Shown here one piece after another: positions 5,025 through 29,983 of a stretch of 64,000 bases of DNA. The translations under genes and the position numbers were made by a program. The stretch is taken from the NCBI GenBank assembly GCA_023268155.1, contig JALNKM010000004.1, positions 1 to 64,000 on the forward strand, read 5' to 3'. Source of the stretch: Candidatus Geocrenenecus huangii (lineage in GTDB: Archaea > Thermoproteota > Nitrososphaeria_A > Caldarchaeales > Wolframiiraptoraceae). The notes below the pieces were generated by a model. That model saw nothing but the letters and a program-made list of their open reading frames with translations. It was not told where the DNA came from and searched no databases. Each line of letters starts with the position of its first letter. The first letter of the stretch is position 1.

Positions 5025-5660
5025 TTACTTCTCTTGATAGAAAGGCATGAATTTATCTTTTAGCTTCTTAATTCTTTCCCCTAAACCTGAGAAACCTGTA
5101 AACTTGTAGTTTTCGGGTTCCTGCAGTTCAGGAGGTTGAATAAAGAATAGTTCCACTGTATCCATTCCCCTTATAGTACTTTCTATTACCTTCTTTCTCT
5201 GTATACCTATCGAGGCCCTCAAGGGTATTACCCTTCCCTGCTTATCTATGTGGAATACCTTAAACTTTAGATCTACAAGTTTTCTAGTCTTAGCGTATTC
5301 GAGTGGATCGATGACCATGGCGACTGCTTTGGGGAACATCATCTGATATCTCTTCTGCGTTTGTATATCTATTGTCGATAAGAAGAGGTCGAAGCCTGGA
5401 TGTGAATGATACCATCCTACAATATATAGTCCAGGTCTCTCTCTCGAAAGCCACTCGAAAGTAGCGGCCATAACTTCTTCATCTAGATATACAAATGCTG
5501 AAGAAGCTTTCTGGTTTCCTGATATAGCATCCCATATCTCTAACACATCTTGTTTCTTTTCATATCGTCCAATTAATAGTCCTGCCACTTCTCTTTCGAG
5601 ATCCATTAAAGTATACTTTACAGCCTTGCCTAATGCTAGAGGATAGATCCTCACTCTCAA
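5025..5660 (-). CDS. Rpn11-like JAMM/MPN+ metalloprotease (predicted deubiquitinase)
   Basis: This is a zinc isopeptidase of the MPN+/JAMM family with every active-site residue: E24 in EVAGLLIG, then HSHPGFDLFLSTID with H85, H87, S95 and D98 in the exact H-x-H-x7-S-x2-D spacing. Eukaryotic Rpn11 uses this site to remove ubiquitin at the proteasome lid. Residues 120-211 form a C-terminal extension resembling the region after the MPN domain in Rpn11/CSN5. It is divergent from the Ubl gene across a 319-bp spacer. The Ubl ends with four residues after its Gly-Gly, so processing the Ubl precursor and removing it from targets is the natural inference. The start is TTG 5660; GTG 5654 is an alternative. 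The protease family is certain and the substrate is inferred. Confidence 0.9.
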   Translation of the reverse strand: MRVRIYPLALGKAVKYTLMDLEREVAGLLIGRYEKKQDVLEIWDAISGNQKASSAFVYLDEEVMAATFEWLSRERPGLYIVGWYHSHPGFDLFLSTIDIQTQKRYQMMFPKAVAMVIDPLEYAKTRKLVDLKFKVFHIDKQGRVIPLRASIGIQRKKVIESTIRGMDTVELFFIQPPELQEPENYKFTGFSGLGERIKKLKDKFMPFYQEK

Positions 5661-5877
5661 CTCTTCTCTACACTCTAGGAAATGCTCTAAAATATAATTG
5701 TTATCTAATTAGCTTCTTTAACAGAGAAGGAATATGTATTTTTAGCAAATACAATCTCCTATGCACAACTCTTCTACAAGGATACATCCCTGTAAGTTAA
5801 GTGTTGATGAGTAGTAAGAAGATTCAAGGTTAGAAACCCGAGCAATCTTGTCTAATATATCTTGATTGTAGGTTCGC

Positions 5878-5923
5878 CGAGTATTTCTATAAGCATTTTC
5901 TAGGAATTCTCGTAGAATACTCG
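5878..5923. repeat. Imperfect inverted repeat upstream of the Ubl promoter
   Basis: The arms CGAGTATTTCTA (5878-5889) and TAGAATACTCG (5913-5923) pair over 11 positions with one extra T, separated by 23 nt. The repeat ends 11 bp before the Ubl box A. The position suits a regulator site or a transcript-end hairpin for a minus-strand RNA. The rest of the 319-bp spacer (5661-5979) holds no credible ORF. Confidence 0.5.
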
Positions 5924-5934
5924 AGATACAAATG

Positions 5935-5944
5935 TTTATATATA
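5935..5944 (+). promoter_or_regulatory. Box A promoter of the Ubl gene
   Basis: TTTATATATA, a near-ideal archaeal TATA box, lies 45 bp before the Ubl ATG. A start near 5965 would give a leader of about 15 nt that includes the GGAGAGAAGG ribosome-binding site at about 5966-5975. Confidence 0.7.
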
Positions 5945-5979
5945 GTGGATAAACAGAAAATTCTAGGAGAGAAGGTTTA

Positions 5980-6228
5980 ATGAAGATTAAGGTCGTTCCT
6001 GCAGTGGGTGGTGGAAGCCCGATAGAATTAGAAGTTTCACCTACAACAACTATTGGAGCTATAAGAGCAAAAGTATGCGCTATGAAGAAGCTCCCCCCTG
6101 ATACTACGAGACTTACATTCAGAGGTAGGGCACTAAAAGATACTGAGACACTTCAGGATATAGGTGTGGAAGACGGAGACAAGCTCGTATTGATAACGAG
6201 GACTGTAGGAGGAGTATATGTAGAGTAA
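5980..6228 (+). CDS. Ubiquitin-like protein with Gly-Gly and short C-terminal tail
   Basis: This 82-residue beta-grasp protein aligns along its whole length with ubiquitin. Examples are IGAIRAKVCAMKKLPPDTT (ubiquitin helix and PPDQQ turn), RLTFRGRALKDTETLQDIGV and the final strand ending TRTVGG at G77-G78. Four residues (VYVE) follow the Gly-Gly, so it is a precursor that must be trimmed before activation. By alignment, ubiquitin K48 corresponds to R50, K63 to D65 and I44 to T46; a lysine is kept at the K29 position (K31). It has a strong box A and ribosome-binding site. E2 lies downstream on the same strand and the JAMM protease is divergent. The ubiquitin-type fold is clear; conjugation to proteins is inferred. 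Confidence 0.93.
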   Translation: MKIKVVPAVGGGSPIELEVSPTTTIGAIRAKVCAMKKLPPDTTRLTFRGRALKDTETLQDIGVEDGDKLVLITRTVGGVYVE

Positions 6229-6366
6229 GATATTGAAGGACAGAACGTCTATCTAGAATAACCTCGTAAGAACGATTCACTGATGTATTAAAGTGACGTA
6301 TGAAATTCGAGAGTACTCATAGAAAACACATATTGGTAAAACATGGAAAGATGGTTACCGAATAGG

Positions 6367-6380
6367 GTATAAGTATTAAT
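6367..6380 (+). promoter_or_regulatory. Possible box A promoter of the E2-like gene
   Basis: GTATAAGTATTAAT lies about 45 bp before the E2 start codon, a suitable distance for a short-leader transcript. The 192-bp gap between Ubl and E2 and this element suggest that E2 can be transcribed separately from Ubl. Confidence 0.4.
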
Positions 6381-6420
6381 CCAGGATTGTTAAGATCTAG
6401 ATTTTAGATGGAGGGACCTA

Positions 6421-6903
6421 ATGATGGATGCTGAGCTTCCAGAGCTCCTCTGGTATAAGAGGTTGGCCCTCGAGTATAAGCTGGTACACGAGCATGAACC
6501 CCTTTTCGATGTTGTTGATGGTGATTTAACACATTATAGAGGAGTGATTATCGGTGAAGGACTATATGAAGGTGGATACTTTAAAGTAGAGATACTTATC
6601 CCTCGCACTTTCCCATATACTCCACCAGACGTCGTATGGTGGACACGTATATGGCATCCTAACTTTACAGATGAAGTTCCAGCTAGAGTATGCGAATCAA
6701 TACTGAAAGAAGATTGGTCCCCCTCTCTCCACGTGATAACGTTGATAGAGACTCTTAGAAACCTGTTAAACAATCCAAACCCCGAAGATCCTTTGAACAC
6801 TATCGCAGCGATGGAGATGAAGTTTAGACCCGATATATTCGAAGCGAGAGTTAAGCAGTATCTCGAGCTGTTCGCAAGACCTGAACAAGCCTTAACGAGA
6901 TAG
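6421..6903 (+). CDS. E2-like ubiquitin-conjugating enzyme
   Basis: This UBC-fold protein has 160 residues. The beta-sheet region (YFKVEILIPRTFPYTPPDVV, residues 53-72) precedes the HPN motif (H79-P80-N81) and the predicted catalytic C91 in ARVCESIL. The typical WSPSLHVITLIETLRNLL helix and NPNPEDPLN follow. HPN to cysteine is ten residues, two more than in most eukaryotic E2s. C91 should carry the Ubl as a thioester. The start is ATG 6421 or the next ATG at 6424, behind a good GGAGGG (6409-6414). No E1-like adenylating enzyme or RING protein is encoded next to it, unlike the compact cluster described for Ca. Caldiarchaeum; hypC follows instead. Confidence 0.92.
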   Translation: MMDAELPELLWYKRLALEYKLVHEHEPLFDVVDGDLTHYRGVIIGEGLYEGGYFKVEILIPRTFPYTPPDVVWWTRIWHPNFTDEVPARVCESILKEDWSPSLHVITLIETLRNLLNNPNPEDPLNTIAAMEMKFRPDIFEARVKQYLELFARPEQALTR

Positions 6904-7030
6904 ACCTCTGTGGTAGTTTATCTATTTCACATTTAATCCGAGATTTAGAAATAGCCAAAATAGCGTATCATCATCGCTGGAGAATGATGCTCAATTAATA
7001 AAAGGTACGATAGTGTAGGTTGTAGCTTTA

Positions 7031-7065
7031 TGTTTTTAAATTCTATCCTACAATACTTATTGTAG
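7031..7065 (+). promoter_or_regulatory. hypC promoter with palindromic operator candidate
   Basis: GTTTTTAAAT (7032-7041) is a probable box A. Just downstream, CTACAAT (7048-7054) and ATTGTAG (7059-7065) form a perfect 7-bp inverted repeat with a 4-bp spacer, covering the predicted transcription start and ending one base before the hypC ATG. This is the classic place for an archaeal repressor. NikR, encoded 10 kb downstream, is one candidate. That link is conjecture. Confidence 0.5.
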
Positions 7066-7066
7066 A

Positions 7067-7360
7067 ATGTGCTGGGGCGTCTACGGTAAAGTGCTAGAAG
7101 TGTCAGAAGAGTTTGTTAGAGTAGATTTTGGTGGAGTAGTTAAAGAGGTATTGTCAGCTATAGATGACCTCTCGCCAGGAGATTATGTAGTTGTCCACGC
7201 AGGCTTTATAATCTCTAAACTGAGTGAAGAAGAATTCCTAGAGAGCTTCAGGTATATTCGAGAAGCTGTTGAAAGACTCGTTGAAGAGGGAGAGATGTCA
7301 ACTGAAGAGCTTGAAGAAATAGATAAGGTGGTAAATAAGTGGTTAAGCAAGAAATACTAG
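7067..7360 (+). CDS. hypC: Hydrogenase maturation factor HypC
   Basis: The protein begins MCWGVYGKVLEV. C2 is the essential cysteine by which HypC, with HypD, carries the Fe(CN)2CO group and delivers it to the hydrogenase large subunit. The OB-like beta-barrel (to about residue 50, with GDYVVVHAGFIISKL) is followed by an acidic helical tail to residue 97, typical of the family. The start lies one base after the palindrome, giving a leaderless or very short leader transcript. It abuts hypE. HypA, HypB, HypD and HypF are not in the window. Confidence 0.93.
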   Translation: MCWGVYGKVLEVSEEFVRVDFGGVVKEVLSAIDDLSPGDYVVVHAGFIISKLSEEEFLESFRYIREAVERLVEEGEMSTEELEEIDKVVNKWLSKKY

Positions 7361-8404
7361 GTGGTCGATGTGGAGAAGATTACTCTAGCCCATGGGTCTG
7401 GCGGAAGAGAAATGAATCAGCTGCTTGAAGAGATAGTCTTCAGTAGACTACCCTCCTGGATGAAGCTCGTTGAAGGTGGTCTAGGATTAGATTTCCCAGA
7501 TGATGCAGCGGCCATCCCTTTAAGCGAAGACAAATACATGGTCTTAACTATCGACTCCTACACTGTTAACCCAATATTTTTCCCCGGTGGAGATATTGGG
7601 AAACTTGCTGCTTCTGGAACGATAAATGATGTACTGATGCTTGGTGGAAACCCGGTAGCTGCATTAGATTCCATAGTAGTTGAAGAGGGTTTAGAGAGAG
7701 AAACATTGGAAAAGATATTAGAATCTATGTTTGACGTATTTGCTAACCTGAGAGTAAAGCTGATCGGCGGAGACTTTAAGGTTATGCCTTATGGAGAGAT
7801 AGACAAGATAATAATCACAACGGTCGGAATCGGTATATCGGAATACTTGATAGTAGATAAGAATCTAAGGCCTGGAGACAAAATCATCGTCTCAGGGCCA
7901 GTAGCTGAACATGGAGCGGCAATATACGCTGCCCAGAAAGGTCTCATGCTTGAAGAACATGAATTAAGAAGTGACGTTAAACCTCTAACGGATTTAATGA
8001 TACCCCTCATAAAAAAGTATGGCAAGCATATTCATGCTGCCAGCGACCCTACTAGAGGAGGTCTGGCAATGACTTTGAATAATTGGGCTTCATTGTCGAA
8101 CACAACCATAATCATAGATGAGGAAAAGATACCGGTAAGAGAACCTGTAATGAGTTACTGCCAAATGCTTGGATTAGACCCGTTAACCTTAGCTTCTGAA
8201 GGAGTAGCGGTTCTAGGAGTAGAAGAAGAGTATGCAGAAGATATGCTTGAAACGATGCATAGAATAGGCTATAGGAATGCTGAGATAATCGGAGAAGTTA
8301 GAGAGAAGAAAGAAGAGATCAGTTTAGTTGTAGTGAGGACAAGTATCGGAGGCTATAGAATACTTGAACCACCAGTAGGCGAGATAGTTCCTAGAATATG
8401 CTAA
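7361..8404 (+). CDS. hypE: Hydrogenase maturation protein HypE
   Basis: HypE dehydrates the carbamoyl group made by HypF on its own C-terminal cysteine to a thiocyanate, the source of the CN ligands of [NiFe] hydrogenases. The protein (347 residues) shows ATP-binding PurM-like features: LAHGSGGREMNQLL at the N-terminus, FPDDAAAIPL, DSYTVNPIFFPGGDIGKLA and SDPTRGGLAMTLN. It ends in PRIC, with the modified cysteine as the last residue (C347). The start is GTG immediately after the hypC stop, so the two are one unit. Confidence 0.95.
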   Translation: MVDVEKITLAHGSGGREMNQLLEEIVFSRLPSWMKLVEGGLGLDFPDDAAAIPLSEDKYMVLTIDSYTVNPIFFPGGDIGKLAASGTINDVLMLGGNPVAALDSIVVEEGLERETLEKILESMFDVFANLRVKLIGGDFKVMPYGEIDKIIITTVGIGISEYLIVDKNLRPGDKIIVSGPVAEHGAAIYAAQKGLMLEEHELRSDVKPLTDLMIPLIKKYGKHIHAASDPTRGGLAMTLNNWASLSNTTIIIDEEKIPVREPVMSYCQMLGLDPLTLASEGVAVLGVEEEYAEDMLETMHRIGYRNAEIIGEVREKKEEISLVVVRTSIGGYRILEPPVGEIVPRIC

Positions 8405-28769: not shown

Positions 28770-29099
28770 TTAGCCGTATTCTCTCCAGGTATGATTACAT
28801 TTTGTGCATCTAAAGAATAAAGTCATGGGCTCGTCGGCGGCTCTCGTTTGTATAGACCACCAATAAGCTTCTTTATTCCCACATTTAGGGCATACAACGT
28901 CACTAGTCGTTGGTAGAACTTTCTCTCCTTCACTCTCTTCTATCATGACTAGGTTAGGTTTAGAACGCTTCTTTGAAAGGTTTGTCACTATGACTTCTTC
29001 TGCTTTCTTCTCATATCCACATTTTGGACAGACCAGAATAGAGTTATTTGATTTCTTCTTTAACACCATGACTTTGCCGCACTTCGGACAGAACTCCAT
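28770..29099 (-). CDS. tfs: Transcription elongation factor TFS
   Basis: This is the archaeal TFIIS/Rpb9-like factor that stimulates transcript cleavage in paused RNA polymerase. The N-terminal zinc ribbon (MEFCPKCGKVM...CPKCGYEK) and the C-terminal ribbon (CPKCGNKEAYWWSIQTRAAD, then EPMTLFFRCTKCNHTWRE) are complete. The acidic hairpin tip (AADEP) needed for cleavage is present. The 109-residue length is typical. Confidence 0.95.
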   Translation of the reverse strand: MEFCPKCGKVMVLKKKSNNSILVCPKCGYEKKAEEVIVTNLSKKRSKPNLVMIEESEGEKVLPTTSDVVCPKCGNKEAYWWSIQTRAADEPMTLFFRCTKCNHTWREYG

Positions 29100-29242
29100 G
29101 TCCCTTCTACTAAACTATAGCTATATCCACTTATTAATTAAACTTACTGAGCATTTAAGTTAAAATTCTTCAAGATAATAATATGGATGTTCTTGATCTT
29201 GATTCTTGTATTCTAGGAATTCTATTCTGGACGAACTTCTTC

Positions 29243-29983
29243 TTAATCATATATTTTTAGATTCATTGCTTGGAACAACGTTTTAAAGAATGTATAGGAT
29301 AGGTCTCCTAGAAATATGTAGTGGATGAACCCGGCTGTAATGAATATTAGGAGCGGTATCCCGGGCGTAGCCCATACATCATCTCTATCTATCTCTGAAA
29401 GCTCTAAAGAAAATAACCCGAACTTGAATCTCCTAACATGATTTTTTTCCTCCATGATGAACCAGAATTTCTTATTCTTAGCATTCTTTAATCTTACACC
29501 GAAGAATAGTGCGAGAAATTTTCTTAGATGTGATTCACAGTCGAATCCTTCGAAGATATTTCTTCCTCTAATTAGCTGGGTTAAATTGTATATGAGAATA
29601 GCGAGAGGGAGGATTAGAGAGAATAGTAGACCGTTTGTTAGAGTTGATAAACCAGTAAATGGATGAATACTTCTACCTTGATATAATGGGAGACCTATAG
29701 ACACTAGGAGAATGGCTTTAGCGTCTGCTCCACCGTAAAATCCTAAGAAATAGAATCCGAATGCCAAACCACTTGAAAAACCTATAGAAAGTAGAGAGAG
29801 GAATAGCTTATCCGTAGACCATCCATAAAGTATGTCGAGAATCGTTAAAGCTGTAGCTATTATGCCTGATAGTATCCAGACTTTATCATCTACTTCTCGA
29901 TACTTCCAATCAAGATATGATGTGTAGAGTAGTGTTGCAGAGATCAGGCTTATCCTAGCAAATAGGAATGTTTCCCCAATCAT
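29243..29983 (-). CDS. A24-family prepilin/preflagellin peptidase-like membrane protease
   Basis: This polytopic aspartyl protease resembles archaeal PibD/FlaK. The two catalytic aspartates are D25 (SYLDWKYREVDDKVW) and D87 in the GFYGGADAKA loop, the family's GxGD-like site. About six to seven hydrophobic segments are visible. The 246 residues include a polar cytoplasmic stretch (about 140-205). Such enzymes cut the positively charged leader of type IV pilin-like proteins. No pilin or archaellin gene was seen nearby. It lies 2 bp behind the NAD(P)H-hydrate dehydratase gene on the same strand. Confidence 0.8.
   Translation of the reverse strand: MIGETFLFARISLISATLLYTSYLDWKYREVDDKVWILSGIIATALTILDILYGWSTDKLFLSLLSIGFSSGLAFGFYFLGFYGGADAKAILLVSIGLPLYQGRSIHPFTGLSTLTNGLLFSLILPLAILIYNLTQLIRGRNIFEGFDCESHLRKFLALFFGVRLKNAKNKKFWFIMEEKNHVRRFKFGLFSLELSEIDRDDVWATPGIPLLIFITAGFIHYIFLGDLSYTFFKTLFQAMNLKIYD

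Follow-up and report, generated by a model that had tools for sequence, protein, structure and literature searches.

The stretch of DNA under study, hereafter the window, is 64,000 nucleotides long and lies at the start of contig C16 (156 kb) in the genome of the hot-spring archaeon Candidatus Geocrenenecus huangii (G000; 1.70 Mb, 21 contigs, 96.5% complete). The genus belongs to the family Wolframiiraptoraceae of the order Caldarchaeales (formerly Aigarchaeota), and the nearest named relatives of the window species, as judged from E2 identity, are Ca. Geocrenenecus arthurdayi (G026, 96%) and Ca. G. dongiae (G027, 94%). Positions 5025-6903 encode three components of a eukaryote-like ubiquitin system, namely an Rpn11-type JAMM deubiquitinase, the divergently transcribed precursor of a ubiquitin-like modifier (Ubl) and an E2 ubiquitin-conjugating enzyme (Table 1); all three genes are intact and lie where an earlier sequence-only reading had placed them. 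The JAMM protein has the Rpn11 of Ca. Caldiarchaeum subterraneum as its top PDB match (6fju, E 2.9e-62) and an intact metal site, with the catalytic E24 located further N-terminal than the H85/H87/S95/D98 motif. The modifier matches the Pfam ubiquitin family at 2.7e-15 as against 0.11 for ThiS, the latter under the cut-off, and its top single-domain match is C. subterraneum ubiquitin (2mqj, E 6.1e-40). The E2, clearly a UBC-fold enzyme and matching E2-25K/UBE2K (1.1e-23), is the sole E2 match across the genome, and its H79-P80-N81 motif and C91 are invariant in an alignment of 35 sequences. Beyond the JAMM gene lie those of L21e and Rpb4, and the E2 gene is followed by hypC, a hydrogenase-maturation gene ancestrally paired with hypD; as had also been noted, no E1 or RING gene adjoins the JAMM, Ubl and E2 genes of the window. 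The locus is not a chance assemblage, since the four families concerned occur in essentially all 44 genomes of the order.

Table 1. Features of the ubiquitin-like system in the window, on contig C20 of the same genome and in related genomes
Feature	Location	Strand	Evidence or remark
Rpn11-type JAMM deubiquitinase, 211 aa, TTG start	5025..5660	-	Pfam JAB 1.1e-17; divergent from Ubl gene
JAMM metal-site motif H85-S-H87-x7-S95-x2-D98	5367..5408	-	from translation
Ubl precursor, 82 aa	5980..6228	+	Pfam ubiquitin 2.7e-15
Gly77-Gly78 and pro-peptide VYVE; Ubl end TRTVGG-VYVE	6208..6225	+	from translation
E2 ubiquitin-conjugating enzyme, 160 aa	6421..6903	+	UQ_con 2.5e-28
Codon of E2 active-site Cys91	6691..6693	+	invariant, 35 sequences
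Rearrangement junction, E1 (ancestral neighbour) to hypC	6904..7066	+	gene-order comparison, 44 genomes
hypC, in place of E1; ancestrally beside hypD	7067..7360	+	HupF_HypC 5.7e-19
hypE, relocated along with hypC	7361..8404	+	AIRS/AIRS_C; same order in G026, G028, G029, G027
E1, 395 aa	C20:26950-28137		ThiF 2e-60; ubiquitin-family domain at residues 324-374
RING1, small RING	C20:28213-28473 (L013:11213-11473)		zf-RING_2 1.3e-11
RING2, second RING protein	C20:30163-30894 (L013:13163-13894)		1.7 kb further on
Second-system loci of genus g11	G010 C2:193231-194449; G011 C29:11551-12868; G012 C59; G013 C28 (L140, L143, L142, L144)

The sequence-only reading had left two possibilities for the activation of this modifier, namely an E1 encoded elsewhere or a different adenylating enzyme, and the genome as a whole bears out the first and makes the second unnecessary. 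A genome-wide search for ThiF domains gave three strong matches, one of which is an intact E1 on contig C20, directly preceded by hypD and followed by an intact small RING gene (RING1) that starts 75 bp past the E1 stop. In this E1 an insert-bearing ThiF domain is joined to a C-terminal ubiquitin-fold domain, and the AlphaFold model of the protein (pLDDT 83) matches, from end to end, human UBA3, the catalytic subunit of the NEDD8 E1. The catalytic cysteine of Uba1 is that of its CTLR motif, and Cys186 of the C20 protein, invariant in 27 sequences, aligns with it. Both E1 and E2 are single-copy in this genome. Upstream of the E1 gene, a 27-nt block (C20:26891-26917) is shared by G000 with G028 and, in part, with G026, in spacers that are otherwise poorly alignable; it may be the promoter from which E1 is transcribed at its new site.

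The two remaining ThiF proteins deserve consideration, as it could be argued that the window Ubl is activated by one of them and that the E1-RING pair serves something else; indeed, the activation of SAMPs in other archaea is the work of MoeB-like enzymes (PMC11354881). However, both are of the ordinary MoeB/ThiF type and have a ThiS/MoaD-like partner of their own, the gene on C12 standing directly behind such a gene and the one on C15 within 2 kb of another, and both lack the C-terminal ubiquitin-fold domain of the E1. The C20-type E1, on the other hand, adjoins E2 in 39 of the 44 genomes and has remained under purifying selection after the two were separated. A non-canonical E1 for the window Ubl was thus set aside, and we regard this explanation as very improbable.

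How E1 and E2 came to be apart is evident from gene order across the order. Five genomes lack the E2-E1 adjacency: G000, G026 and G028, in which the genes are split, G012, which is 57% complete, and G042, in which separation by rearrangement was rejected given that a contig ends there and truncates the E2. The join of E2 to hypC is found only in G000, G026 and G028. The ancestral arrangement is preserved on a single contig (C18) of Aigarchaeota SKYB24 (G029), which reads L21e< Rpn11< Ubl> E2> E1> RING1> ... RING2> ... <hypE <hypC <hypD, the E2/E1 and hypD/hypC junctions lying about 17-18 kb apart and in opposite directions. Inverting the piece between these two junctions yields exactly the E2>hypC>hypE and hypD>E1>RING1 orders, and both reciprocal joins are present in G000 and G028. 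In G026 the first is direct and an acylphosphatase-like gene stands between hypD and E1, a trace of which is retained in the hypD-E1 spacer of G000, while G027 keeps both ancestral adjacencies, including hypD-hypC, on separate contigs. In a tree of E1, E2 and Rpn11 the three split genomes group together (SH-aLRT 98); G029 branches off next to this group and G027 before that, and the split accordingly requires one change: it arose once, within the window's sub-clade of Geocrenenecus. The genes of the interval between the breakpoints in G029 are distributed over two contigs in G000, which indicates further rearrangements; the inversion need not have matched this interval in size and may have taken more than one step.

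No repeat or mobile element common to the E2-hypC and hypD-E1 spacers of G000 was found, and G026 is the sole genome with IS-like repeats on the flanks of E1, those of G028 lying at contig ends. In G026 a transposase gene that looks IS110-like on visual inspection (C76:18739-19653) follows E1 immediately, at the site expected for RING1, short related repeats stand on either side of E1, and the assembly yielded no RING1. The cluster has been broken at other boundaries as well, given that Rpn11 is separated from Ubl in both g8 (Pelearchaeum) and g11, E1 from the RING pair in the Calditenuaceae (f3) and Ubl from E2 in G020; clustering is therefore frequent without being required. Within the window species, Ubl and E2 are separated by a spacer of 192 bp (6229-6420), whereas in G026, G028 and G029 the two genes abut or overlap, and E2 may thus have its own promoter here.

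Two further explanations can be weighed against this history, and both are even less probable than activation by a MoeB/ThiF protein. According to the first, the pathway is decaying, E1 and RING1 being relics of the split and Rpn11, Ubl and E2 being kept for another purpose. The loss of the operon neighbours of E1, the transposase gene beside E1 and the missing RING1 in G026, and the growth of the Ubl-E2 spacer in G000 would fit such a course. However, E1 and RING1 retain all catalytic and zinc residues, 43 of the 44 genomes have an ortholog of this E1, as many as have one of Rpn11, and the dN/dS values measured after the split against G026 and/or G028 are low throughout (E1 0.07-0.10, RING1 0.06, E2 0.01-0.02, Ubl 0.05-0.06, Rpn11 0.04-0.07), although synonymous sites are near saturation and these figures are rough, to be read as orders of magnitude only. 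The second explanation, a chimeric E2-hypC or hypD-E1 join, could be entertained for a draft genome in 21 contigs whose relatives have contigs ending in repeats near these genes, and an E1 or RING gene just outside a misassembled join had been named as what would overturn the sequence-only reading, but misassembly was rejected, as both joins are internal to contigs of 156 and 64 kb and each order recurs in the same three separately assembled species with differing spacer sequences, which are hence not copies of one error.

Contig C20 carries, in addition to the small RING, a second RING protein (RING2) with a rather different architecture. A profile search recovered RING2 in 41 of the 44 genomes of the order, each time as one gene and mostly close to that of the small RING; the three genomes without a match have short contigs ending near E1 or RING1, and extending the search to the class added no genomes beyond the order. 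Four membrane segments are predicted from hydropathy in all six species checked. The AlphaFold model displays, with high confidence, four long helices (residues 5-31, 52-74, 78-111 and 119-140), followed by a disordered linker (147-181) and a C-terminal C4HC3 RING whose zinc ligands C197, C200, C212, C215, H220, C223, C234 and C237 are invariant (n = 22). The RING domain matches those of Arkadia, RNF165, RNF38 and the ER membrane ligases synoviolin and AMFR; comparison of the membrane part with the claudin/TARP fold offers a weak lead only (best E 1e-3; TM 0.35-0.44 by query length). The interval from the small RING to the membrane RING also encodes two coiled-coil proteins (C20:28586-28978 and 28968-29834), which occupy the same place in G027 and G029. 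As to the small RING, it was assigned to the C3H2C3 type in PMC5654768, where it was remarked that H4 is misplaced and that there is an extra cysteine, C3B. In our alignment (n=28) the extra cysteine is always kept, while the presumed H4 position is occupied by H, Y, N or F, and an invariant cysteine next to a variable histidine makes C4HC3 the better reading.

From these features we tentatively propose, as a serious possibility, that the ubiquitin system of the order has two dedicated ligase branches which predate the split, a soluble one with the small RING and a membrane-anchored one with the four-helix RING2, whose retention parallels that of E1 and the small RING. RING2 would then be an archaeal membrane-protein ubiquitin ligase, with a layout analogous to that of Hrd1 or gp78, and in the split genomes the E1-RING half of the pathway could come under a regulation separate from that of the Ubl-E2 half. 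The ligase role assigned to RING2 is a prediction from its RING domain.

A distinct picture emerges for the C-terminus of the modifier, where the core is conserved through TRTVGG and the tail that follows is variable. Its length is zero in 14 of the 37 species that could be read directly, comprising g2, all eight of g5 (Wolframiiraptor) and four of the Calditenuaceae, and the remaining species carry 1-20 unrelated residues, a distribution that requires at least three changes on the tree. In C. subterraneum full-length pro-ubiquitin undergoes no activation until it is cut (PMC5654768). Tailless species thus skip that step, yet they retain Rpn11, which in many species cannot therefore be kept for precursor processing; presumably, their Rpn11 is kept for deconjugation.

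Taken together, these results make it very probable that the ubiquitin system of the window species is complete and of the Caldiarchaeum type, its gene cluster having been divided by an inversion between the E2/E1 and hypD/hypC junctions. The cascade would thus operate in trans from two loci, with no need for an alternative adenylating enzyme. In the scheme that we envisage, the ancestral order Rpn11< Ubl> E2> E1> RING1> ... RING2> would have been broken by an inversion in one Geocrenenecus sub-clade, leaving E2>hypC>hypE in the window and hypD>E1>RING1 on C20. Rpn11 would trim VYVE and expose Gly78, after which the C20 E1 would adenylate ubiquitin and bind it as a thioester on Cys186; the C-terminal ubiquitin-fold domain of E1 would recruit E2, ubiquitin would pass to Cys91, and its transfer to substrates would be promoted by the soluble RING1 or the membrane-anchored RING2, Rpn11 finally taking ubiquitin off the substrates again. 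The presence and intactness of the genes, the conservation of their catalytic residues, the single copies of E1 and E2 and the gene-order history are direct observations, and the reactions and their order are deduced from homology with the C. subterraneum system. For the proteins of that organism, and in vitro only, Rpn11 processing and E1-, E2- and RING-dependent ubiquitylation have been reconstituted, with an E1-to-E2 thioester relay and RING-stimulated conjugation (PMC5654768, PMC6043591). The genome of the window species also encodes two proteasome-family proteins and two further JAB proteins.

A possible exception is thereby removed, in the sense that the ubiquitin pathway of the window species calls for no novel E1 chemistry. 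An ordinary rearrangement accounts for what was striking in the original observation; most worth following are the membrane RING and the lability of the tail. The clade moreover provides a natural experiment, as the cascade is encoded at two loci in three species and at one in their sisters, which makes it possible to ask whether E1 and E2 need to be co-expressed. A conserved membrane-anchored RING beside a soluble one, together with a labile pro-peptide, is also relevant to the origin of the eukaryotic system. The E2/E1 split, the conservation of RING2 as a membrane protein with four helices and the labile ubiquitin pro-peptide look new or under-described: we found no published description of the split or of the membrane RING, although supplementary files or Nunoura 2011 may hold an earlier mention; the accessible parts of the literature on C. 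subterraneum do not mention a membrane anchor of the second RING, and ubiquitin goes unmentioned in the main text of the Wolframiiraptoraceae paper of 2022.

With respect to known systems, a much more distant comparison is with the Asgard archaea (Heimdall-, Hermod-, Baldr- and Odinarchaeota), whose E2s are 38-52% identical to that of the window and whose E2 loci are described as ubiquitin operons in PMC5654768. SAMP/Urm1 systems, which pair a ThiS/MoaD-like modifier with a MoeB-like E1, are represented by two such sets in the same genome. The window Ubl is not one of them: unlike these modifiers it belongs to the ubiquitin family, its ThiS match falling under the cut-off, and it has a cognate E2 and an E1 with a ubiquitin-fold domain. 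A second, diverged system is observed in genus g11 (Calditenuis and kin, f3), where a fusion protein of ~273 aa joins an N-terminal ubiquitin-like domain ending in GG to an E2-like domain and is followed by a second JAMM gene; an E1-like ThiF gene lies no more than about 2 kb away, or about 17 kb in the case of G010, and a pilin-like gene is found alongside in some.

Among the closest systems is that of SKYB24 (JANXDW010000020), of the same genus, which has all core genes at 73-94% identity in the ancestral order on one contig, with the cluster and hypD-hypC unbroken and, unlike the window species, a VDSVCRAP pro-peptide. The operon of C. subterraneum (Rpn11, Ub, E2, E1, srfp; Csub_C1473 onwards) comprises the same five orthologous families as are found here, so that all Caldiarchaeum-type components are accounted for, from the GG-ending modifier and Rpn11-like JAMM protease to the E2, the single-chain E1 and the small RING. 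Shared with it are the divergent Rpn11, the Ubl-E2 order, a pro-peptide after GG, an E1 with ThiF, Cys region and ubiquitin-fold domain, and a small RING of the same type. The differences reside in a pro-peptide of 4 rather than 9 residues, the Ubl-E2 gap and, above all, the layout, since instead of one operon beside Rpn11 the window species has E2 followed by hypC, and E1 and both RINGs behind hypD on another contig. The likeness to Caldiarchaeum drawn in the sequence-only reading was thus apt: given the orthology of all parts and the ancestral order in a sister species, the window species derives from the same gene order, and its one-operon layout was secondarily lost through one rearrangement.
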